Source: a virus. From it: 26,173 nucleotides of DNA. The stretch is from positions 1-26,173 of IMG/VR virus record IMGVR_UViG_3300020472_000146. One strand, 5' to 3'. Below, in pieces: positions 1-24,900 of the stretch (position 1 is the first letter of the stretch; the number at the start of each line of letters is the position of its first letter). The position numbers were made by a program, and so were the translations under genes. The notes beneath the pieces are model-generated. The model was not told the DNA's origin, ran no database searches, and saw nothing but the letters and a program-made list of their open reading frames with translations.

Positions 1-359
1 TCTGCTGGTTTGTCTGGTATCAGATTATCATAGGGCATACCACCAGCAGGTGTAACAACCTGAACATGAATGAAATAATCCTGATCAGTGAGGTCAGTTG
101 ATAATGGTATCCAATCTTGCATTGTATCAATTGCTACTGCCTGACTATTAAACTCGTAGATAGTATAATGTTCACCAAATACTTCACCAATCTCATCGGT
201 TGGTATAGTATCCTCATAATATGTTTTAACTGTTGCTTGCTTGGCAGCATCCAACGTAGACCATTTAATATTATTAATGATAGCAATATACTTATTCTTT
301 GATTCAGCAGCATACTTGGCGAGTTCATATACTCGCTGTGCATTTAATGATATTAGCAT
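1..359 (-). CDS. Unrecognised protein, N-terminal part (runs off left edge)
   Basis: The reading frame starts with ATG at 359-357 and stays open to base 1, giving 119 residues; the C-terminus lies outside the window. The start is supported by a GGGAG ribosome-binding site at 367-371, 7 bases upstream, and by the one-base overlap TAATG with the stop of the preceding gene. The product begins MLISLNAQRVYELAKYAAES, which looks helical, and has acidic and aromatic stretches further on (YYEDTIPTDEIGEVFGEHY, then DWIPLSTDLTDQDYF) and a PAGG..YDN segment near residue 105. I see no signal peptide, membrane segment or known catalytic motif. I do not recognise the family. Its position as the last member of a virion operon, next to a chaperone-like gene, suggests a small structural or fibre-assembly protein, but this is inference only. 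Confidence 0.75.
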   Translation of the reverse strand, partial: MLISLNAQRVYELAKYAAESKNKYIAIINNIKWSTLDAAKQATVKTYYEDTIPTDEIGEVFGEHYTIYEFNSQAVAIDTMQDWIPLSTDLTDQDYFIHVQVVTPAGGMPYDNLIPDKPA

Positions 360-1294
360 TATAATTCTCCCTTTTCAATCTTGTCTAATAGATCTTCAAT
401 ATAATCTCTATTGACCTGATCATTGTTAGCAATTATTTGTTCTGCATGAGCTTCAGTATTACCAGTTAACAATGTATGGAATGGACTTACCATCACTCTT
501 GTTTCCTCACCAGTACCAATAGGTGCAATAACTGATGTTCTTGCAGCAAGATATAATGTCATTCTCTGTGTAAATGAATTCAGTGTACTTGAGTTCATCT
601 TCCAGAAATGATATGAACTATCAAGATAATCCTTATCTGTACCTTGTAGTCCTACCTTATCAATAACTAATTGATCAACTGTTATTGATTTCCTCTGTAC
701 ATACTCATCAGGAGTGATAGGAAATACCACATCAAATGGTGTCTCAGCATTCTGTAATGTAGGAATATCTCTAATGTATGATCTATACTGCTTCCACAAT
801 GCTTTCATCTCATCAGTGAGAGGTGCATCAGTTTGTTGAGTGAAATCACTATCTTGTAGAAGAAATCTTCTAACAACCTTTATCTTATCCCATGTTAATG
901 AATTGCTTCTAGCATACTCTTTTTGTATTGCTTGTTGATATGTATCCTCTGTTACATCTCTATACTCAATAAATTGTTCTTTTAATTTATCTCTTAGATC
1001 TGTTACATCATATTCAGCAACACCACTAGGATCAAATTCATATGAAATCCAAGTATTTGTATTGGTTTTAAAATCCTTCTTGTACTTATTTCTTTGTATT
1101 AAATACGATCCATCATCTCTATAGACAAACATCTCAAGTTTATCTTTAGCACTATCCCATAAAGGATAGATTATTGGACTGATATTTGTTTCCCAAAAAC
1201 TATCAGTCAATTGTTTCTGAACGCCTTTGTATTGGATAGTTCTTTCCAACGCATTCAGATATATATCAGTATTTTTAAGTGCTGTGCTTGCCAT
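359..1294 (-). CDS. Virion-operon protein with a tail-assembly-chaperone-like motif (311 aa)
   Basis: ATG at 1294 follows the stop of the giant glycine-rich gene by 2 bases. No strong Shine-Dalgarno is visible, so translational coupling is likely. The product is soluble-looking, with no signal peptide or membrane helix. Residues 167-195 contain W-K-Q-Y-R, I-R-D-I-P and then D-V-V-F-P, closely matching the 'W..YR..LRDIP......V.WP..P' signature that I recall for phage tail assembly chaperone proteins, which usually sit directly downstream of tail-fibre genes. Here the motif lies in the middle of a longer protein: residues 1-160 are charged, with aromatic-rich strands, and residues 200-311 are mostly helical and acidic. 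Known chaperones of this kind are often shorter, so this may be a fusion, or a structural protein that has taken up the motif. A fibre-assembly role for the upstream 2973-residue protein is inferred from motif and position. Confidence 0.8.
   Translation of the reverse strand: MASTALKNTDIYLNALERTIQYKGVQKQLTDSFWETNISPIIYPLWDSAKDKLEMFVYRDDGSYLIQRNKYKKDFKTNTNTWISYEFDPSGVAEYDVTDLRDKLKEQFIEYRDVTEDTYQQAIQKEYARSNSLTWDKIKVVRRFLLQDSDFTQQTDAPLTDEMKALWKQYRSYIRDIPTLQNAETPFDVVFPITPDEYVQRKSITVDQLVIDKVGLQGTDKDYLDSSYHFWKMNSSTLNSFTQRMTLYLAARTSVIAPIGTGEETRVMVSPFHTLLTGNTEAHAEQIIANNDQVNRDYIEDLLDKIEKGEL
367..371 (-). promoter_or_regulatory. Shine-Dalgarno (GGGAG) for the left-edge partial gene
   Basis: GGGAG lies 7 bases upstream of ATG 359, inside the final codons of the 311-residue gene. 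It supports the start even though the gene is cut by the window edge. Confidence 0.6.
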
Positions 1295-1296
1295 AT

Positions 1297-4200
1297 TTAG
1301 AATGCTTTTATAAGGTATTTAGCTCTGTGGTATCTAGTTATGAGAGGTATATTCTCTTCTGGTGTTGCCGTGGCATTAACAGATATTGGTGTTGATGAAG
1401 ACAATGCGAATGTACCATCAGCAAATCTAATATTAGATTGTGATGCACTAACAGTCTTTCTAACCTCATCTATACCAGTATTAGGTCCACATGTTCCTAT
1501 ATTTCCTGGTATTTCAGAATTAGTAGAAGGTGTGAACACTTGTGATGTAACCTGACCAAATTTAACACCAAATTCAGCAAGACCCCATATATCAGCACCA
1601 TCATCATCCCAGTCACTACCAGAATTAGATGGTCTAGTCTGACGTAATACTAGATATATACCAGTTTCTTTAATTGGACTAGTATCATCAACTGCGTATT
1701 CATATTTCTTCCACCCTTGATCAGTTGTAGTAATACTAGCAATTACTTGCAATAGAGTATCATTAGCCTGATCAACACTAGTTTTATAATACATTGCTAA
1801 ATCTTCTTCTGGTGCATCACCACCATTAGTACCATCACCTTTAATAATATAGAATACCAATTTATCTGCTGCTGCTAGATTTAATGGTCCTAACTGTAAG
1901 TACCTGTCACCATCACCAACAAACTTAACAAATTTAGTTGATTGTGTTGAATAAGCAGGGAACGTACCAGTTGCAGGAAGTATTACATCTACATCTTCAC
2001 TAGCACTGTGCCATATATCACCACCAAGAGTTGATGAAGTTGCTGGCCAAATTGAATTATCAGGATAACCAGGAACTTCATAAACATTTCCTCTAGGAAC
2101 AGTATATCCACTAGGGGGATTAGCACTACCTGCAATAACTCTTTGTGCTTCAACCTTAGCAGCTCCTTGTCCACCAGATTGTGAGTTACCACCAGATCCA
2201 CCGTTACCAGGATTTCCTAAGTTAACAACAATGTCAGTAGCACCATCAGAATCATCAAATGCCCACTCTACAGTTAAGACACCACCACCACCTGCACCAC
2301 CACCAGAGGGATCTACAGTATTACCCTCATAATGTACAGTGAAGTTAACGTATCCACCTCCAGATGATCCAGCACTTTCAGTAGCATTATGGACAAAATT
2401 AGTATTATAAGAAGATCTACCAGCATAACCACCAGATCCTGATCCAGTGTTGACGTGTCCAGCACCAGCAACTCCTGACGCTCCACCCTCACCACCTGTA
2501 CCATCTCCAGCACCAGCACCGCCGCCGCCTCCTCCACCAGCTGTGCATCCTCCTTCACCACCACCATTACCATATCCAAATCCGATAGATTGAGTTGCCA
2601 TTAAACCTTGTGCAGGTGGATTACCTGGTCCACCAGTCCAACACTTATCATATATTGAACCACCATTATATCCACCACCGCCAGCACCACCGCCACCGCC
2701 AGCACCAGCTCCAATAATATATGTGTTAGCACCTGCTACTGATAATGATGTTGCACCACCACCAGCTCCAGCAGCAGAACCATTTCCCCATGCTCCACTA
2801 CCACCATATCCACCATCAGCAGCACCAGTACCTACATTATTATTTCTTGGTTCACTATTTGTTCCCTCTACATTATTATATCCTTGTCCACCTTGAGTAC
2901 CAATAGTAAATGTATAGTTATCTACTAGAGTACTACCATTACCTGATCTACCTGTTACTCGTCTACCTTGTCCACCACTTCCACCTACACCAGTTTGTGT
3001 GGAACCTGAACTATTAAGATATGACTGATCTTGACAACCTGCTCTTCTATTAGCATTACCATCACCACCTGCACCACCAGATACATCAAGATCAATATAA
3101 ACAATACTTGCATCAGAAGGAACTCTTGGATCAGCAGCAGCATTAAATGTACCACTACTACTAAAGTTTTGTTGAAAACTACCTATTGATGGTGTTGTTG
3201 CATAAGCACCATTACCACCACCACCAGCATTAACAAAATCACCCATATTTAGACCTGGTGCTCCATCAGGAGTTGAACTATCTTGTTGTCCTCCATCACT
3301 ACCATTTTGACCATTCAACTGAGTAGATATAACAAAATTTGCATCAGAAACTAATGCAGCAGGTACTAAGAATCCTCCACCTGTTCCACCATTACCACCT
3401 GACTGTCCAGCAGTACCACCAGTACCACCATAAGCATAGATGGTATACTGAGATTTTACTCCATTAATAATATAATCAAATGTAGCAGATACATTTCCAC
3501 CTGTTCCACCATTACCTTGTGAACCACCACCTCCACCACCAGGAGCAACGAGACTTATCTTATACTTTCTTACATCAGCAGTTCCTGAAGATGCACTCTT
3601 AGTAATAGTTCCAGATGATGTTATCATCTCTTCATATCCTGGAACTGGTTCATAGTCATCAGGATCTTGTGATAATATTGGTTTACCACCTATTCTAGTT
3701 TGAGTATCAACTACCCATACCTTAGGATCTGGTATTGTAGTAACATCTGAGAAATAACCTGCTGCTTCTCTAACTTTACCAGTAGCATCTCCATTACCAG
3801 CAGCAGGTGCATTAGCAGGTTCTACTTTAAATGTATTTGTATTAAATCCTTCTTGTATAATTTGGAATGTACTATCATACCCTGATCCAACTTCCAAGAA
3901 TGTTATCCAATCACCAACAGCAAATCCATGATCTGCTTCAGTTACACATGTAATTTTCTGACCATCACTGCTAACAGTATTAATAGCAATAGATGGTGCT
4001 TCAGTAATCTTATAATTCTTACATCCACCAGTTCCAAAATCTTTATCACCAGCTTCTAATGGGAATGATCTATCCTCACCCCAAATAACTCTGACTCCAC
4101 CATCACCACCTTTTCCACCAGCAGCACTGTAACCAGCACCACCACCACCTCCAACTTCACCACCAAATCCACCAGTCATAGGTGTGAATGTTCCAGCACC

Positions 4201-7200
4201 TCCAGGTTGATATATTTGCTCTGCATAATCAGAAGCCATGAATGGGAATGATCTTACATTTCCAACACCCCATATAATTCTTACAGCACCATTTCCTCCA
4301 TTTCCACCAGCGATATTATAACCACCACCACCTCCACCACCGTGGCCGCCACCTTGACCACCACCATATGATGTCCATCCAGCAGAAGTAACAGCATCAG
4401 CTGATGTTTGTTTTCTATCACCTGTATTACCTGTTGTATGAACAGACCAAGCAACACCAGCAGGGTTAGCAGCCCAGTTATTTTGAGATGAATTATAATT
4501 CTTAATTGTATACCCTACTACATGATCACCAGCAGCTACACTTCCGAGATCATATATTGTACTGGAAGTAGGTGACGTAACAGTACTTGGTTGACCACTA
4601 CCATAATTTTGTGTTGTTACATCATCAGTATCTGTTGATGGGAATGATCTATTGGATCCCCAAATAATTCTTACCGCACCAAATCCACCAGCACCACCTT
4701 CATATGGTGAACTTCCACCATATCCAGCACCACCACCTCCACCATATCCACCGCCAGGTCCACCAGCGACTGATCCAAATGTTGTACCTGTACCAGGATT
4801 ATATGCTTGTGTTGGTTGATCAGTAGTTAATGTACTAGGGAATGCTCTACCTGTTCCCCACATAATTCTTACAGCACCGTCACCACCATCACCACCAGTA
4901 TATCCAGCACCAGCAGGTATTCCACCACCAATATTACATGCACCACCTCCACCACCGATAGCACCACCATTACCACCATCAAAATCAGTATGAGTACTAA
5001 AAGTAGTAGTAGCCATGTCAAGTGAGTCAAGGATCATAGATCCCCACTTGTCATTTGGATTTGTATATATTATCCACGCAATACCAGCAGGGTTAGGACC
5101 ATTCCAAGCACCAGTACCGATGTTAGTTAAAGTACCAAGTACATAATGTCTACCAGCACTAAGAGTTCCTAAGTTATATGTTACTCTACCATCAGTAGCT
5201 TGTTGAGTTTGGTTGGTAAGTGACCATTGTATACCAGTGTAACCAACACCAGTAGGTAAGTAACCTACACCTATAGTACACTCATCATCAACCATTACAT
5301 CAATATATACCTGATTCAATGTAGCTGGAACATCAAATATTTTACCCCAAGGTTCAGCCGAATTATTCCAAGGATAAGGACTGCTAAGATTAGTTGGGAG
5401 TGCTCTACATACAGCCCAATCATTCATGAACTGATCCCACATGTTAGCAGCACCCCATGTATTAGGATCCCATGGACCTGAACGTTGCCAGTGACTAGTA
5501 CTTAGATAAGGCATACCACTTGGACTATCTTGTCCGTCAGCACCACCTGATCCACCAGTACCACCTTCTACTTGAGCACCATAATTTTGTGGTATACAAT
5601 TATAGGAAACAATACTATTATTTCCACTGGCTCCTTGACCATATATTCCTACTCCACCACCACCAGCACCACCAAAATTACATTTACTACCTGCACCTGT
5701 GCCACCGCCTCCACCACTATTTCCAGCAGTATATCCACCAGCACCACCACCACCTTGATAGGCAGCAGTTGAATTTCCATTATCACCACCTTGTCCTACA
5801 TAACCACCACCAGTTGATACTAAATTACTTGCCCATCCACCACCACCACCTCTACAAGTAGTTTGATCAAGGAAATAACTATCTCCACCTCTATTTGCAT
5901 TAGTAGAACTACCAGAAGATGATCCAGCACCACCAGCACCAACAACAATAGTATACGTCTGTCCTGGTGTGACTTGAACCGCATTACGCCAAGCTAATCC
6001 ACCACCACCACCTGAACTATTATTAACACCACCAGCACCACCACCAACTGCTACAGAACAAACTTCAGTTACTCCAGCAGGTGCTGTCCATGTATATGTA
6101 CCAGGAGTTGTCCATTCTGCTTGACCTTGAGCAGGAGTTGGAGTAGCACCACTTGATGAAGAAGGAGATGTAATTGCAGTACCAGCACTACCACCTGATC
6201 CTCCTCCACCACCACTCATTGCTGTGCTTGCTGAATTTTGTACAACTGGATTACCAGCAGCACCGCTACTACCTTGTCCTTTAATACCAACTCCACCACC
6301 ACCTGATCCAGCACCTGTGCCAGTTACAGTAGTTGAACTACCAACTCCACCACCACCGCCTTGTCCAGTAGGATTAGCAGCAGATCCACCCGATCCTGAA
6401 TATCCAGCGGCTCCACCACCGCCACCTGCGGATCCTTTTCCACCACCTACGCCTCCTCCATCACCGACATAGGTTCCACCAGTACCATTATTACCACCAC
6501 CACCTTTTACTGTGGTAGCATTAATGAAATAACTATCTCCACCACTATTACCTTGTGTTCCTGTTGTTCCTGATCCAGCTTGTCCAACGACTACTGTATA
6601 CGACTGACCTGGAACGACTGTTATATTATTCTTATATCCTAGGCCACCACCGCCTCCACCAGCATTATCATTACCACCACCTTGACCAGCACCAACCGCT
6701 ACAACTGCTACTGATGTCACACCAGCAGGTGCTGTCCAATTCTGTGAACCTGCTGTTGTAAATTCTTCCTGACCTCTTGCTTCTGCTCCACCACCACCAA
6801 GGGCAACACCATCCCAACTAATAGTTGCTTCATTGTCTGATTGTACTTCAATACTAAGATTTTGAGTACTTGAAACATTGAAACTATGAGAATTACCCTG
6901 CATCGCATTAATATATGGATCCTGTCCATCATTAGCTGGTATTGATTTATAAATCGCATAGTCATGCATGAAGCTAGACCAGAAAGAATACTGAGGTCCA
7001 CCAGTCAATACCCATGAATCTGATAAAGTAGGACTCACTACAGTGGCTCCATCAGTACCATTGGATCCTCCTTGACCACCTAACATCTGAATATTTTGAT
7101 CACTAGTAAACTGAGGATCTGCTCCAGAACCACTAGATGCTTGTCCAAATATACCTACGCCACCACCTCCAGCACCACCATTAGGAGCACCAGAGAATGC

Positions 7201-10200
7201 CATACCAGCACCACCACCTCCAGCATTTCCATCTACTACTGTTCCTCCACCACCATTTCCAGCGTATCCAGCAGCACCACCACCAGATCCGTATTGTGTT
7301 TTAGCACCACCTACACCACCGCCTTCTCCTGTATATCCACCACCTGTACCTGATGCTGATCCACCACCACCTTTTACAGTATTTGTATCAATAAAATAAC
7401 TATCTCCTCCAGCACCACCTTGAGCATTAATAGATCCTTGACCACCTGCACCAACTTCAACAGTATACGAATTTCCTGGTGTTACTGATATTGAGTTTTT
7501 CCATCCTAATCCACCACCTGATCCACCATTAACACCTTGTCCACCACCAGAACCACCACCAACTGCAAGTACAGAAACCTGAGTTACTCCAGCAGGTGCT
7601 GTCCATGTATATGAACCTGGTGCAATCCAAGCTTGTTGTCCTATTGCAGGAGTTGGATTTGTAGAATTTTGTTCTGTTGGTGCAATAACATTACCACCAT
7701 TAGTACCACCTGATCCACCTCTACCACCTTGCATTATTCCACCTTCAGTGGTTTGTGTGCTAGGGGTTCCATCAACACCAGTAGTTCCTTGTCCTTTAAG
7801 ACCTACTCCACCACCTCCAGCACCACCTCCAGTGACATCTGTATCTGATCCTGTTCCACCACCACCTTGGTTAAGAGCATATCCACCAGCTCCACCACCT
7901 CCACCATTTGTGGATGAAGGGTCACCATTACCACCACCATCACCTACAAATGTTCCATAACTCTTTGAATCACCAGGTGTTGATGTACCACCACCTTTAC
8001 CTACACATGTAGTTTGATCAAGGAACCAACTATCTTGTCCTGGAAGATCAGCAGTGGAAGAAGATGATCCAGTATTACCAGCACCCACGAATAAATTATA
8101 TGTCTGTCCTGGAACCACTGTTACATCGTTGTGGTATCCTAGGCCAGCACCACCACCACCTTTTGTTCCACCAGCACCACCAGCACCACCACCAACTGCT
8201 ACTACACAAACTGATTGAACTCCAGTAGGACATGTCCATGTATGAGACCCTGTAGTAAGCCATTCTTCTTGTCCAGTAGTACCACTAGAACTAGAAGTAT
8301 ACTCACCAATACCACCAGTATTACCATAGGTTGCAGTAGCAGAGTTTGATGGTCTATATGATGTCAAACCATGTGAGTGACCTAAAGCAATCTCATCACT
8401 AGTACTTGGTGTAAATGATAATATATTACCTTTAAGATTCTGATACCTAGTAGTAAATCTATCATTACCACCAAAAGATTGTTCTTGCTGCTGATCTACT
8501 TCACTAGCAATAAGATAATGATCATGTGATGCTGGTCTATTGAAAATATAATCCTGTATAGGTCCAACAGTAAATTGCTTTTCACCACTTAAATATGCTT
8601 GGCACTGAGTCTGCACATCACCATATCCTGATGTTACAACATCACTAATAGTAAAGAACTCTGCTGGATCATCTATCACAGTGGTTGGTATATACCATGC
8701 ACCACCAATATCACCAACTTCTATTGTTGGTCGTGCTTCTACTAATGGAGTACCTGCACCCTCAACACCTTCACCATATCCAATTAACTTTCTATCTCTA
8801 TAGTCTGGTACTCTAAATTTTCCTAATAGGTATGGATAATCTGATTGACTATATCCTTTTCTAATTCTTGCTTTAGGATGTCCTGTTATAACACCAGCAG
8901 TATTAGTATATGGTCCTAAAGTAGCCCATTCTATGTTAAAAACATTATCAGTTACATTACTAGTTACACCAGTTATGGTAAGATTATTAGTATAGTTAGG
9001 ATTACCACTATATGTTGGTATTAATGAACCAGAACCAGCAGTAAAATCTAAACTCTGTATTAAATCCTGCCCATTTGACAGTTTAGCAATAACATTAAAT
9101 CTATAAAGATGCTTCTCACCTCCCTCTGGTTGTGGTCCTGAATATCCACTATCTCTAATCCACCATGCAGCAGTACCTAATGGTGGTTGTACAGATGATT
9201 GTGATACTGTATTACCTTGTATAGTAGCACCTGCTGGTAATACAGCATTACTCTGTAAACTCGTAACAGAAGCAGGAATACCTGTTACATGCCACTGCAC
9301 CATGTCTTGCAATGACATATTCTGAAGAAATATTTCATATGAATCAACTTGAACACCAGCTGGCATTCCATTTAAATTACTCCAACTAAATGAAGGACTA
9401 TAATTTAATGCGTTTGGTTCATATGAAGTATATCCACTAAGATATGGTAATCCAGTACTTGCATCAATTGATCCTGGCACAGCTTCAGGAACAGTACCAT
9501 AATATTCTATCGGTAGTATATAATACTGATCTGCACCAGATGGAGTAATAAGAGTATCAGAAGTAATAGACCAATTGACATTTACAGTTGATGTTACTAC
9601 AGTTGTAGTAGTTGTTATTGCCTGATTGACTAATATTCTATGTACTGTAGTATCTTGTCTTGTTGAAAGATTCTGATACGTTGGATTATATTCCAGATAA
9701 TAATCTTTATCTGCTTCAAATACATTACTACTACCAGCAGGGAAATCTCCAAGAGATCCAACAAACCTTAACTTTGACTCGTGTGGTATAGCACGTTGTT
9801 TAATAACAGAAGATCCTCCTACTGGAGTGAACTCATACTTAAATACTTCTGCATATATGTCAGTACCTTCAATAAATGTTCTGAAAACAGTTCCTGGTTC
9901 ACCAGAACTAGTAAAAGTATATGAGTTAGAGTTAATTAATTCTGTTGGTGTTAAGTAATCATTCCCAATCAATTCATATAATAAAGGATAATCTCTAATG
10001 TCATAAGAAGTACCATCACAATACAAATACCCTTTATGGGCATAATGAGGTGGATTTATAGTACCTATATTATCACTATAATCATTAACCAATACTGGTA
10101 CGATAGCACCAATTGTGCCATAAGATCCGCCCTTATCGCTATACCAATTAGGGGTCTCTGTTGTACCAGTTACAGAACCCTGAGTATTAAAAGTATTACC

Positions 10201-10218
10201 TTGCTTATAAACGGCCAT
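1297..10218 (-). CDS. Giant glycine-rich tail fibre with split collar domain (2973 aa)
   Basis: ATG at 10218 shares its A with the TGA of the upstream gene (TGATG). Domains in order: (i) first half of a phage tail-collar domain, residues 62-90 (GYLYCDG, then RDYPLLYELIG); (ii) insert of about 370 residues holding a PEBP-like domain (about 270-380); (iii) second collar half KFRVPDYRDRK at 467-477; (iv) two H-x-H motifs, 565-567 and 614-616; (v) from residue 649, four glycine-rich modules interleaved with two copies of a beta module; (vi) a second, nested-looking glycine-rich pair; (vii) a reelin-like beta-sandwich; (viii) a C-terminus ending RAKYLIKAF, like the two sister collar proteins. Known relatives are tail fibres or adhesins, so this is probably the host-binding distal fibre. 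Glycine codons are almost all GGT or GGA, giving the + strand its CCA/ACC look. The function as receptor-binding protein is inferred. Confidence 0.9.
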   Translation of the reverse strand: MAVYKQGNTFNTQGSVTGTTETPNWYSDKGGSYGTIGAIVPVLVNDYSDNIGTINPPHYAHKGYLYCDGTSYDIRDYPLLYELIGNDYLTPTELINSNSYTFTSSGEPGTVFRTFIEGTDIYAEVFKYEFTPVGGSSVIKQRAIPHESKLRFVGSLGDFPAGSSNVFEADKDYYLEYNPTYQNLSTRQDTTVHRILVNQAITTTTTVVTSTVNVNWSITSDTLITPSGADQYYILPIEYYGTVPEAVPGSIDASTGLPYLSGYTSYEPNALNYSPSFSWSNLNGMPAGVQVDSYEIFLQNMSLQDMVQWHVTGIPASVTSLQSNAVLPAGATIQGNTVSQSSVQPPLGTAAWWIRDSGYSGPQPEGGEKHLYRFNVIAKLSNGQDLIQSLDFTAGSGSLIPTYSGNPNYTNNLTITGVTSNVTDNVFNIEWATLGPYTNTAGVITGHPKARIRKGYSQSDYPYLLGKFRVPDYRDRKLIGYGEGVEGAGTPLVEARPTIEVGDIGGAWYIPTTVIDDPAEFFTISDVVTSGYGDVQTQCQAYLSGEKQFTVGPIQDYIFNRPASHDHYLIASEVDQQQEQSFGGNDRFTTRYQNLKGNILSFTPSTSDEIALGHSHGLTSYRPSNSATATYGNTGGIGEYTSSSSGTTGQEEWLTTGSHTWTCPTGVQSVCVVAVGGGAGGAGGTKGGGGAGLGYHNDVTVVPGQTYNLFVGAGNTGSSSSTADLPGQDSWFLDQTTCVGKGGGTSTPGDSKSYGTFVGDGGGNGDPSSTNGGGGGAGGYALNQGGGGTGSDTDVTGGGAGGGGVGLKGQGTTGVDGTPSTQTTEGGIMQGGRGGSGGTNGGNVIAPTEQNSTNPTPAIGQQAWIAPGSYTWTAPAGVTQVSVLAVGGGSGGGQGVNGGSGGGLGWKNSISVTPGNSYTVEVGAGGQGSINAQGGAGGDSYFIDTNTVKGGGGSASGTGGGYTGEGGGVGGAKTQYGSGGGAAGYAGNGGGGTVVDGNAGGGGAGMAFSGAPNGGAGGGGVGIFGQASSGSGADPQFTSDQNIQMLGGQGGSNGTDGATVVSPTLSDSWVLTGGPQYSFWSSFMHDYAIYKSIPANDGQDPYINAMQGNSHSFNVSSTQNLSIEVQSDNEATISWDGVALGGGGAEARGQEEFTTAGSQNWTAPAGVTSVAVVAVGAGQGGGNDNAGGGGGGLGYKNNITVVPGQSYTVVVGQAGSGTTGTQGNSGGDSYFINATTVKGGGGNNGTGGTYVGDGGGVGGGKGSAGGGGGAAGYSGSGGSAANPTGQGGGGGVGSSTTVTGTGAGSGGGGVGIKGQGSSGAAGNPVVQNSASTAMSGGGGGSGGSAGTAITSPSSSSGATPTPAQGQAEWTTPGTYTWTAPAGVTEVCSVAVGGGAGGVNNSSGGGGGLAWRNAVQVTPGQTYTIVVGAGGAGSSSGSSTNANRGGDSYFLDQTTCRGGGGGWASNLVSTGGGYVGQGGDNGNSTAAYQGGGGAGGYTAGNSGGGGGTGAGSKCNFGGAGGGGVGIYGQGASGNNSIVSYNCIPQNYGAQVEGGTGGSGGADGQDSPSGMPYLSTSHWQRSGPWDPNTWGAANMWDQFMNDWAVCRALPTNLSSPYPWNNSAEPWGKIFDVPATLNQVYIDVMVDDECTIGVGYLPTGVGYTGIQWSLTNQTQQATDGRVTYNLGTLSAGRHYVLGTLTNIGTGAWNGPNPAGIAWIIYTNPNDKWGSMILDSLDMATTTFSTHTDFDGGNGGAIGGGGGACNIGGGIPAGAGYTGGDGGDGAVRIMWGTGRAFPSTLTTDQPTQAYNPGTGTTFGSVAGGPGGGYGGGGGAGYGGSSPYEGGAGGFGAVRIIWGSNRSFPSTDTDDVTTQNYGSGQPSTVTSPTSSTIYDLGSVAAGDHVVGYTIKNYNSSQNNWAANPAGVAWSVHTTGNTGDRKQTSADAVTSAGWTSYGGGQGGGHGGGGGGGYNIAGGNGGNGAVRIIWGVGNVRSFPFMASDYAEQIYQPGGAGTFTPMTGGFGGEVGGGGGAGYSAAGGKGGDGGVRVIWGEDRSFPLEAGDKDFGTGGCKNYKITEAPSIAINTVSSDGQKITCVTEADHGFAVGDWITFLEVGSGYDSTFQIIQEGFNTNTFKVEPANAPAAGNGDATGKVREAAGYFSDVTTIPDPKVWVVDTQTRIGGKPILSQDPDDYEPVPGYEEMITSSGTITKSASSGTADVRKYKISLVAPGGGGGGSQGNGGTGGNVSATFDYIINGVKSQYTIYAYGGTGGTAGQSGGNGGTGGGFLVPAALVSDANFVISTQLNGQNGSDGGQQDSSTPDGAPGLNMGDFVNAGGGGNGAYATTPSIGSFQQNFSSSGTFNAAADPRVPSDASIVYIDLDVSGGAGGDGNANRRAGCQDQSYLNSSGSTQTGVGGSGGQGRRVTGRSGNGSTLVDNYTFTIGTQGGQGYNNVEGTNSEPRNNNVGTGAADGGYGGSGAWGNGSAAGAGGGATSLSVAGANTYIIGAGAGGGGGAGGGGYNGGSIYDKCWTGGPGNPPAQGLMATQSIGFGYGNGGGEGGCTAGGGGGGGAGAGDGTGGEGGASGVAGAGHVNTGSGSGGYAGRSSYNTNFVHNATESAGSSGGGYVNFTVHYEGNTVDPSGGGAGGGGVLTVEWAFDDSDGATDIVVNLGNPGNGGSGGNSQSGGQGAAKVEAQRVIAGSANPPSGYTVPRGNVYEVPGYPDNSIWPATSSTLGGDIWHSASEDVDVILPATGTFPAYSTQSTKFVKFVGDGDRYLQLGPLNLAAADKLVFYIIKGDGTNGGDAPEEDLAMYYKTSVDQANDTLLQVIASITTTDQGWKKYEYAVDDTSPIKETGIYLVLRQTRPSNSGSDWDDDGADIWGLAEFGVKFGQVTSQVFTPSTNSEIPGNIGTCGPNTGIDEVRKTVSASQSNIRFADGTFALSSSTPISVNATATPEENIPLITRYHRAKYLIKAF
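1560..1980 (-). other. Reelin-like beta-sandwich near the fibre C-terminus
   Basis: The segment RYLQLGPLNL, LVFYIIKGDGTNGGD, EDLAMYYKT, TLLQVIASI, GWKKYEYAV, and RQTRPSNSGSDWDDD ending DIWGLAEFGVKF follows the strand order of reelin-subrepeat or related jelly-roll domains (acidic ridge, 'D.W.I..' last strand). It could bind calcium or glycan. Assignment is by eye and tentative. Confidence 0.4.
2140..3640 (-). repeat. Second glycine-rich region of the 2973-aa fibre
   Basis: One glycine-rich domain opens with RKYKISLVAPGGGGGG (about 3570-3520). A second opens with SSSGTFNAAADPRVP and YIDLDVSGGAGG (about 3160-3060). Ends GGYVNFTVHYEG (about 2330-2360) and GGGGVLTVEW, then VVNLGNPGNGG and KVEAQRV (about 2290-2140) follow in that order. 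This is consistent with one domain inside the other. Sequence differs from modules A-D, with no VRIIWG end. Confidence 0.55.
4435..4566 (-). other. Beta module X, C-terminal half only
   Basis: IYDLGSVAAGDHVVGYTIKN and NPAGVAWSVH match the second half of X' (YNLGTLSAGRHYVLG, NPAGIAWII). It has no FM.D(Y/W)A half in front of it and lies between the second and third VRIIWG ends. Confidence 0.65.
5055..5500 (-). other. Beta module X', complete copy
   Basis: It contains WDQFMNDWAVCRALPTN, a DDECTIG strand, LGTLSAGRHYVLG and NPAGIAWII. It is the complete counterpart of the split module X and sits after glycine-rich module D. The pattern resembles a lectin-like or PA14-like beta-sandwich, a weak analogy only. 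Confidence 0.65.
6780..7019 (-). other. Beta module X, N-terminal half only
   Basis: WVLTGG, FWSSFMHDYAIYKSIPAN and SDNEATISWDG form the first half of a beta module also present intact at 5055-5500. The second half (LG...AG.H.........NPAG.AW) is missing here: the chain enters glycine-rich module C a few residues after WDG. The lost half appears at 4435-4566. Confidence 0.65.
9079..9411 (-). other. PEBP-like (YbhB/RKIP-type) domain inside the glycine-rich fibre
   Basis: Residues about 270-380 of the 2973-aa protein contain the PEBP series in the right order: SPSFSW (family S-P-x-L-S-W), a strand VDSYEIFLQN, QWHVTGIPA (family W-V-x-x-N-I-P), LPAGA, and WWIRDSGYSGPQPEGGEKHLYRF (written here in pieces: GYSGPQPE, GGEKHLYRF; family GY.GP.PP.G..H.Y.F). 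It falls between the two halves of the collar domain. The ligand-site aspartates of active PEBPs are not clear (LQNMSLQD instead of a D-P-D type motif), so a structural or binding use is more likely than a signalling one. Confidence 0.6.
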
Positions 10219-21900: not shown

Positions 21901-24900
21901 GAGTCAAACCATGAGATCCAATAGTAAGAACCTCCTGATTTCTACTTACCAAAGCAGCCATCTCCTTAGCATAATCAAAGACTACATTAGTCTCAGATTC
22001 TTCACCAACAACATGATTACCTGTCTTGTATGAATACGCAGCGTCCCATACCTTATCGTTACCACCATATGCTACGTTATCTGCAACAGCCTTCAATACA
22101 TCTACAACATCATCAACACAATCCTTACTATGATAGATCTTAGAAGCAGGATTAGTTCCACCAACATAGAATACCTTATGAATTGAATTATCTACAGCAT
22201 CTACAAAGGTGTGTGGATATTGTCCACCAGATATTACAGCACCAGGATCTGCTATTACAAATGTATGAGGATACTGCTGACCAGAAGCACCTACATTAAC
22301 ATTAACTGTAATAGTTCCACCTTGCTTAAGTATTCCACCAGTAGCACCTCTCTTGAATGTATGTGCAGACTGAGGAAGATGTTTTACTGAGTTAGGACTA
22401 CCATCTACAAATGTATGTAAAGACTGTGGTTCATACTCAACAGCATCAGGAAGTGCCTCTACAAATGTATGTGCATACTGATTGTTAGCATCAGCATCAA
22501 AACCTACATTGATTGTAAATGTTCCATCTTGTCTCGTAATACCACTACCAGTTGCTTCCACAAATGTATGATTGGATGTATCCTGAGATATACCTACATT
22601 AACTTCAAATGCATTAGCAACAACATTAGAGATCTTCAACCATCTTCCACTTGAAGGATCAAATCCAGTACGAGGGTATGATTTCTCTGCGGTATCACCA
22701 TCTAATTCACATGTAAATTTGAGTGAGTTATCAGCAATCTGAATATAATCTCCATTAGAGAATCCATGATTAGCAATAGAAATTAGTAGAGATCCAGTAG
22801 AAGGAGTATATACAGCACCAGTAGCAGTATGTGTTGTAGAACCAACTGCTGTTACAGCTATAGACTTACCAGCATAAGGGTCAGTACCAGGACGAGGATA
22901 AGAATGCTCTGTTGCATTACCATCTTTATCACAAGTAAAGGTAAGAGAATTATCTTTAAGAGTAATGTCAGAACCAACTGCAAGTCCATGCTGTCCTACA
23001 GTAAGAACCATCTCACCAGTAGCAGCATTATATGTTCCAGCAGTAGGTTGGAAATACTTATCATCACCTGCAACACCTACATTAACTGTAACTGTTGTAC
23101 CAGTTATAGATTTAATAGGAAGAGATCTTCCTGATGCCTGATCTTTACCTGCACGTGGATATGTCTGAGCAACTTGATTACCATCCATTGTACATGTAAA
23201 TGATAATGCATCATTATCAATGGTAATACCATCACCCTGTGATAATGCATGAGATCCAATAGTAAGAGTTAGATCACCAGTTGCAGGATCATATGTTGTT
23301 CCTGTTGTTGGAGTATACTGTTGATCAGCACCTGCTGCATCAACATTAACTTTGAAAGTGTTGACAGTTGCATCTGATATTGTTAACCATTTATCATTCT
23401 TAGGATCACTAAGTCTTGGATATGCATGTTCTGTGAGGTTATTGTCAAACAAACATGTGAAGGTCAAAGACCCCTCGGAAATTTTTATGGAATCGCCATT
23501 TGCAAAACCATGATTTGCTACAGTTAATTCTAGAATACCAGTTGCAGGATCATAATCAGCATCAGTTGCTGTATGATTTGATGAACCAACAGATGTAATT
23601 GGTAACGCTGTCTGATATGCTGGATCAGTTGCACGTGGATAAGAATGCTGTGTTGCATTAGCATCCTGTCCACATGTAAATTTGATAGAATTGTCAGCTA
23701 ATCTAATACTCTGTCCTTTTAATAGTTTGTGGTTGCTTATGCTTAGAGTTAGATCTCCAGTAGTATGATTGTAAGAAGCACCACCAACATCATAAGTCTT
23801 CTCTACTGACTTACCTACATTAACTGTAACTGTATTAGCAGTTGTATCTCCAATAGCAAGTAATGCACCACCAGAAGGATCACTTACACGAGGATAAGTA
23901 TGCTGACTGCTATTACCATCCATTCCACAAGTAAAGGTTAAAGCATTGTAATCAATTCTAATAGCATCATTCTCTCTCTTAATACCACTAGCAGTAAAAG
24001 AAGCAGGAACAGAAGCATGAACATAATCACCACCAGTTACAACTGAGTTATCAGTAGAATGAACAAACGTATGAGCACCAGCAGTAGCATCATTAGCTTG
24101 ACCTACATTAACTGTAATTGTATTAGAAGTTACAGAATCAATAGCAACACCATTGACGATTGGGTCTGTTGCTCTTGGATAAGTATGCTCTGTTGCATTA
24201 CTATCTTTAGCACAAGTAAATCTTAATGAGTTCTGAGCAATTTTAATATTTGTACCAGCAGTCAGTCCATGAGCACCAACAGTTAGTACCATAACTCCTG
24301 TTGCTGGATTGTAATCAGCACCAGTAGGAGTAAATGATATTAGAGGAGAATCACCAACATGAACATCAAATGTATTTGTAGTTACATTAGAAATCTCTAA
24401 CCATTTACCAGATACAGGGTCAGTTGCTCTAGGGTATGCATGTGTGGTAGTATTATTATCCATACCACATGTAAATGCAAGAGATCCATCAGTAATATGA
24501 ACTCTCTCACCTTCAACCATACCATGACCATTAGATGTAATTGTAAGAACACCTGTGCTTGCAGTATAGTCAGCATCAGATGCTGATAATGATGTTGCTC
24601 CTGTAAGTCCATGACTATTAATAGTCAATGTTAGATCACCACTAGCAGGGTTATAGGCAGCAGCAGTTGGAGTGAACTTCTCTGTAGAAGACTGAAGTAG
24701 CATCCTCTCAACAGACTCATGTGCAATGAGATCTGCATTAGCAAGGATTAAATTACGTGCGTCACCAGCCTTATCATTAACTGGGTCTGGTGCTACAGCA
24801 GTAATAGGATCACTCGCTGTTGTAATAGCAGTATTAGAAGAATTGAGTTGTGCAGTAGTATTAACCTGAGTTAATCCATGACTACCAAAAACAAATATAT

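Follow-up and report, generated by a model that had tools for sequence, protein, structure and literature searches.

Why would a phage fibre gene carry the beginnings of four related domains one after another and their endings only much later? The question is raised by the tail fibre gene P0001 in the window, which here means the whole 26,173-base stretch of IMG/VR virus record IMGVR_UViG_3300020472_000146, a single virus contig with its genes on the minus strand. The first-pass annotation, made from the letters of this DNA, had read the glycine-rich fibre as a set of nested brackets. Our analysis leads to the same reading: with a probability of about 0.8, P0001 is a gp12-like tail fibre or receptor-binding protein with a 1415-residue block built by domains inserted inside domains, A[B[X[C[D[X']]]]]. 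Evidence for the nesting comes from pairs of complementary profile halves, found for all four glycine-rich levels and for module X, from relatives with one or two levels, from orthologues in which the site is empty, and from a conserved segment at residues 1129-1877.

Order of the domain pieces in P0001

The gene and the pieces of its block are listed below in window coordinates, with capitals for the glycine-rich openers and lower case for the late ends.

1297-10218, minus strand: P0001, tail fibre, 2973 amino acids
8280..9678, minus strand: gp12-like part of P0001 upstream of the block, conserved in orthologues
4033..8277, minus strand: whole nested block, P0001 residues 648-2062 (1415 residues), absent from orthologous fibres
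7681..8271, minus strand: opener A, glycine-rich profile 1-218, 115 bits
7033..7638, minus strand: opener B, glycine-rich profile 1-218, 154 bits
6784..6996, minus strand: X, N-terminal half of module X, X profile 10-77 of 154, 52.9 bits, cut after its WDG strand
6166..6771, minus strand: opener C, glycine-rich profile 1-218, 149 bits
5515..6123, minus strand: opener D, glycine-rich profile 1-219, 143 bits
4981..5460, minus strand: X', complete module, X profile 8-153, 57.6 bits
4828..5007, minus strand: end d, glycine-rich profile 212-265, VRIMWG, 27 bits, aligned together with D to Pam3 gp24
4627..4791, minus strand: end c, glycine-rich profile 211-266, VRIIWG, 33 bits
4381..4623, minus strand: x, C-terminal half of X, X profile 67-147, LGSVAAG..NPAGVAW, 34.3 bits
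4240..4386, minus strand: end b, glycine-rich profile 200-263 over residues 1921-1993, VRIIWG, 18 bits
4057..4179, minus strand: end a, glycine-rich profile 220-263, VRVIWG, 22 bits

The glycine-rich profile (266 positions) was built from 57 uninterrupted domains of other phages, leaving out the window and L001, another contig with the same gene. On this profile all four openers (115-154 bits, E-values 2e-36 to 4e-48) halt at position 218 or 219, and the four ends (18-33 bits, E 8e-7 to 3e-11) cover about positions 200-266. The matches of A, B, C and D start at P0001 residues 650, 861, 1150 and 1366 (window 8271, 7638, 6771 and 6123), three bases away from the starts of the first reading (8274, 7641, 6774 and 6126), and the profile pieces of the ends finish exactly at the positions given there (4855, 4657, 4267 and 4078). 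The ends had been described as strands; their number and position stand, and each is better described as a piece of about 50 residues comprising the last glycine loop and the final strand. Pfam family PF21722 (Gly_rich_2) matches P0001 in four stretches with 104.7 bits, the cut-off being 24.3. Its best opener covers positions 1-208 of 226 and the whole profile is never found in one stretch, while an unsplit domain of L086 reaches 225. Because the late ends, as seen with our own profile, supply what the openers omit, we regard the window domains as interrupted members of PF21722: the openers lie far above the cut-off and differ from the family in being interrupted at about 208 of 226.

The second domain type gives the same picture. 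On a profile of 154 positions, derived from 11 uninterrupted X domains, X and x are complementary halves that flank C D X' d c, which agrees with the earlier claim that X is cut after WDG, that its missing half returns between the second and third ends and that a complete X' is central. Read along P0001, the pieces therefore come as A B X C D X' d c x b a, palindromic by domain type as first proposed. Ordinary tandem domains, with each end packing on its own upstream glycine tract, had been named as the outcome that would speak against nesting; no such arrangement is seen in the sequence, since the ends come without the profile 1-218 part that ordinary domains require. A tandem arrangement of the window domains was also considered in its own right and is ruled out, as no end was found between the openers.

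L001 has the same module order and boundaries, with 57-94% amino-acid identity per module; its openers run to profile 218 or 219, its ends begin at 203-219, and its X pieces match the X profile at 11-77 (X), 83-147 (x) and 10-153 (X'). A one-off assembly error is therefore unlikely, and L001, together with the fact that L086 (Marine virus AG-345-P14), which carries a nest of its own, is a record from a single amplified cell, makes an assembly artefact in general unlikely as well. The persistence of the arrangement in L001 also bears on decay, by which the openers would be tandem domains that had lost their ends, and the late VRIIWG pieces what is left of further copies cut short, with no nested fold. 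Decay would leave halves standing alone, and the ends are short and disordered in the B..b model described below; yet the four openers share one stopping point and the four ends take up close to it, there are as many ends as openers (4 and 4, plus X and x), the reading frame is open across all 2973 residues, and eleven relatives carry one domain inside another at this slot. We consider decay very improbable.

Divergence between the window and L001 differs by layer. Identity at third codon positions is 76% in A, 62% in B, 76% in X, 90% in C, 89% in D and 88% in X', followed by 98% in d, 94% in c, 72% in x, 74% in b and 79% in a. The most outstanding conservation segment of the whole gene spans residues 1129-1877 (90% against 76%; its score was reached in 0 of 30 shuffles), nearly coinciding with the balanced unit formed by C D X' d c (residues 1149-1868). 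Judging from these sequences, the C..c unit would have been either exchanged recently or held more strictly. The segment supports C..c as a unit and not the pairing inside it, because a contiguous exchange would look alike.

Empty sites, simpler relatives and the origin of the copies

The first part of the gene is common to five loci (83% identity in L001's contig, 45-47% in the others), and a profile scan yielded 27 loci. The screen for an empty site covered 21 of 26 loci (L099, L100, L101, L113 and L114 failed the motif filter; L118 was cut off) and found one in 10 of the 21; L095, from a separate look, makes 11 (with L094, L096, L097, L098, L104, L105, L106, L108, L116 and L117). In these orthologues the GH(S/A)HGL..YGN..GIG motif leads directly into the next domain, and an insertion is therefore the simplest account of the 1415-residue block as a whole. 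Unrelated cassettes occupy the block site in L093, L102, L103, L107, L115 and L109-L112. P0001 thus resembles the T4-like gp12 of cyanophages in the part before the block and differs from it in the block itself: 11 of the orthologues examined have no block at that place, and others have unrelated cassettes.

Comparison with homologues of fewer modules, as suggested by the first-pass annotation, yielded relatives with one or two levels. The survey set comprised 272 sequences (the window and loci, with 27 genome contigs left out), including 250 distinct proteins with the glycine-rich domain; the scans kept the best 80 loci, so the following counts are not frequencies. A single complete copy occurs in 185 proteins and complete tandem copies in 15, and split domains are rarer. 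Eleven proteins have an X domain in the glycine-rich slot at about 218, written N[X]c (L026, L027, L031, L033, L050, L057, L059, L063, L072, L077 and L159; L027, L031, L050, L059 and L063 lay outside the script tolerance and were added from a separate analysis). A glycine-rich domain within another was found in 8 of the 250, forming four families by eye, of which the window and L001 are one; the script had flagged nine, and L146 was dropped for its permuted order. The outer domain is split as 1-67|69-266 and 1-66|74-266 in L086 and L186, as 1-195|201-266 in L009, L236 and L276, and as 2-101|105-196, then a second, different domain, then 191-264 in L021. In all eight self-nested proteins it resumes near its stop, the largest overlap being 18 positions (b in the window).

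Searching a phage collection with D-X'-d returned two records, with openers only, and no self-nesting was seen in 27 bacterial or archaeal genome loci with complete, partial or permuted domains. Several further arrangements were observed. By eye, a single glycine-rich domain of L184 (open reading frame (ORF) in frame 2, residues 44-855) hosts three different domains, each at its own place: one of unknown type, one LamG-like and one an X domain. Permuted glycine-rich domains, in the profile order 1-40, ~72-237, 40-71, 241-266, occur in L140, L144, L146, L157, L280 (first ORF) and L207, and look as though a different loop had taken up the glycine core. Another route to multiplying the domain is seen in L226, L231, L232, L253 and L271, where neighbouring short genes have one complete copy each.

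In a tree of 157 opener sequences A-D are not one clade, their common ancestor holding 108 tips; A and C group with N[X]c domains (a clade of 6, support 0.965), B is nearest to L046 and D to L052. Local duplication of a single domain is therefore not how the block arose. A more elaborate version, tandem duplication followed by one rearrangement that produced the palindromic order without repeated insertion, could draw on the relatedness of A and C and on the finding that none of the 27 loci has this fibre gene with A..a alone or with A[B]..b a. It is contradicted by B and D on other branches and by one-step nests in other phage families, and a single rearrangement does not give a palindrome by type with X split in register; we consider it highly implausible. 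Insertion of domains inside domains, as the first-pass annotation had suggested, accounts for the split halves, the recurrence of one slot (profile 218) at all four levels, the relatives with fewer levels and the empty sites. Domain insertion as such is well known, and carbohydrate-binding modules inserted in siphophage adhesion proteins are an example with one level and a different receiving domain, and are not known to be self-nesting. To our knowledge, self-insertion repeated to six levels has no precedent, and no description of repeated domain self-insertion in phage fibres was found in the open-licence literature searched.

Pairing of the pieces and a structural explanation

Which opener belongs to which end is less firmly fixed than the order. 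The positions of X and x assign {b,a} to {A,B} and {d,c} to {C,D} and go no further; inside these sets the pairing relies on how insertion works and on the other nests, not on sequence affinity. The block might accordingly be nested in origin and not in pairing, with interchangeable final strands that are crossed (A-b, B-a, C-d, D-c) or swapped between trimer subunits. This is allowed by the limited reach of X and x, it agrees with the failure of sequence affinity to select nested partners, and the Pam3 fibre is an intertwined trimer according to its description (PMC9608196). However, inserting a functional domain yields nesting by itself, a complete domain lies between the outer parts in L086, L186, L009, L236, L276 and L021, and in the second gene described below the cut sites differ and the ends come back last-in-first-out. 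Additionally, 57 contiguous domains aligned to B..b were all placed on C and c, in effect one aligner decision. We judge crossed or swapped pairing unlikely.

Structure models bear on the nested pairing mainly at the innermost level. The best match of the D-X'-d model among solved structures is the fibre protein gp24 of cyanophage Pam3 (7ypx), with Z 12.4 (second 11.7), a root-mean-square deviation (rmsd) of 3.4 over 152 residues and 34% identity; the next are the Bxb1 tail tip protein (Z 9.4), then LTK/ALK (about 7). Since the alignment runs from model 1..425 to chain 80..277 and spans X', it assigns D and d to a single domain with X' in between. The first and last strands lie in one sandwich in this model, the only one where this was found, with a mean predicted local distance difference test score (pLDDT) of 51.9; the first strands reach about 70-92 and the final strand block 74. 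A model of B..b (1140 amino acids) was built with 46 opener-only rows, and its structure comparison covers the openers and X' only. Its opener C aligns to chain 76..245 only (Z 12.5, rmsd 2.5, 143 residues), so that the opener lacks the final stretch of the Pam3 domain. Sequence searches of solved structures with two queries gave no match for either, probably because glycine-rich sequence was filtered.

According to its description, Pam3 gp24 has a tumour necrosis factor (TNF)-like sandwich whose strands continue distally into a six-loop glycine-rich domain; variation increases toward the loop tips, which are hypervariable and proposed receptor binders, and the chaperone gp25 holds these parts while they fold (PMC9608196). 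Going by that description and the structural alignment, P0001 and gp24 (PDB 7ypx, 7yfw) are alike in the TNF-like plus glycine-rich fold with first and last strands in one base, in hypervariable distal loops and in an adjoining chaperone gene (P0004 here, gp25 there). They differ in that gp24 is a single uninterrupted domain, whereas P0001 has four copies carrying other domains in a loop, six levels with X and X'. The TG (TNF-like, glycine-rich) domain of the animal receptors ALK and LTK matches both models at Z 7 to 8, a level that unrelated folds can reach. We know of no nesting in that domain.

By analogy with gp24, each glycine-rich domain of P0001 would form a TNF-like sandwich whose base holds both its first strands (opener) and its last strand (VRIIWG, end), topped by glycine-rich loops with hypervariable distal tips, and these tips would be the slots that accept whole domains. 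An inserted domain would have both of its ends at its base, where the chain leaves and re-enters, and would therefore stack on the tip. Repeated insertion would then lengthen the fibre by growth at the tip, running A B X C D X' from base to tip, and would place new binding surfaces, X and X', at the middle and the tip; a binding function of these domains is likewise suggested by analogy. The block would have grown from domains of the phage gene pool, its openers being from different family branches, and the balanced unit C..c may have been exchanged or conserved as one piece. If true, this explains how a fibre tip could change without disturbing the base, accounts for the truncated domains that annotation tools report in phage adhesins, and predicts which pieces, thousands of bases apart, form one domain; a nested domain might also serve as a scaffold for multi-domain binders.

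Several points weigh against this reading. The glycine core of the D-X'-d model has pLDDT below 50 (mean 51.9), and the Foldseek E-value of its Pam3 match, 2.5e-3, is not significant and has unrelated folds alongside. In the B..b model none of the ends was placed, residues 836-1140 being disordered (mean pLDDT 48), and the X halves were not seen to fold together. When openers and ends were paired by affinity against 130 homologous domains, nested partners were not favoured (rank 8 of 24 in the window, 16 of 24 in L001), and A-a/B-b as against A-b/B-a is not settled by sequence. The assignment of the slots to distal loop tips is carried over from Pam3. Ordinary marine glycine-rich domains vary in length at about profile 38, 73, 101, 124, 151, 171, 200, 218 and 239; the slots used (about 67, 101, 195 and 218) lie at or near four of these (73, 101, 200 and 218), and because nine variable positions exist the coincidence is only mild evidence.

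Module X itself may resemble sugar-binding beta-sandwiches. Its model ties with many beta-sandwich folds at Z about 6, Foldseek lists Cea1A, Epa1A and others at E 4e-3, and there is no Pfam match; a PA14/CBM-like lectin is a candidate identity. X domains were also observed elsewhere, one inserted at another place in the same fibre gene (gp12-like ORF of L093, residues 150-296) and X-like ones in proteins encoded shortly after psbA and psbD in L090 and L091 (S-RIM8 and S-RIM2).

A second nested series and the neighbouring genes

The other features of the window are as follows.

22184..24676, minus strand: P0005 residues 500-1330, second, unrelated nested series of TFTC..YPR..HTFV modules
minus strand: P0005, 4393 amino acids, open at its start
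359..1294, minus strand: P0004, tail fibre assembly chaperone, PF16778
minus strand: P0003 and P0002, tail collar/short tail fibre families
minus strand: a partial gene

The first-pass annotation had claimed that an unrelated domain family in a second gene follows the same rule, and P0005 supports this, with the order of its ends read partly by eye. On a module profile made from five contiguous modules of L009, L011 and L171, the matches in order are module 1 (1-28), 2 (2-90), 3 complete, 1 resumed (26-90), 4 (1-80), 5 (2-88), 6 (4-86), 7 (1-83) and 8 complete. The cut sites differ among modules, openers 4 and 7 lack the TVNVG strand, and one module is interrupted twice. The later ends, from a motif list read by eye, are strand+HTFV, HTFV, HTF(K), strand+HTFV and HTFV, exactly as last-in-first-out closure (7, 6, 5, 4, 1) predicts; first-in-first-out fails. 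The order is moderate evidence, because one in ten placements of two strand-bearing ends among five fits by chance. Scored on the profile, one of the strand-bearing ends gets 6 bits (E 8.4), and the other is under the listing threshold of 4 bits. We give even odds to a wider proposal, that marine phages build adhesive fibres recursively: a scaffold with several standard loop slots takes whole domains, including its own family, and grows at the tip to any depth, balanced units are exchanged, and a second unrelated domain in the same operon uses the rule independently.

The identity of the fibre draws on its first part and its neighbour. The region before the block matches cyanophage proteins annotated as gp12 or short tail fibre (S-RSM4, 2e-11; Syn1, 4e-5; 31 records in all), the similarity covering part of that region at 26-32% identity. 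P0004 matches PF16778 with 33.6 bits (cut-off 26.6), and 16 of its 18 matched records are Synechococcus phages. Because of these two sets of matches, we take P0001 to be a gp12-like fibre of a T4-like marine phage. For the part downstream of the block, a scan for relatives gave six stretches, none of which was confirmed. Within the first part of the fibre, residues 271-379 match Pfam PF01161 (phosphatidylethanolamine-binding protein fold) with 33 bits. The tail collar motif of P0001 (GYLYCDG..DYPLL, residues 62-86; FRVPDYRDRKLIG, about 467-485) is apparently split by ~380 residues, and the profile matched its first half alone (iE 9e-4); P0002 carries the same motif contiguously.

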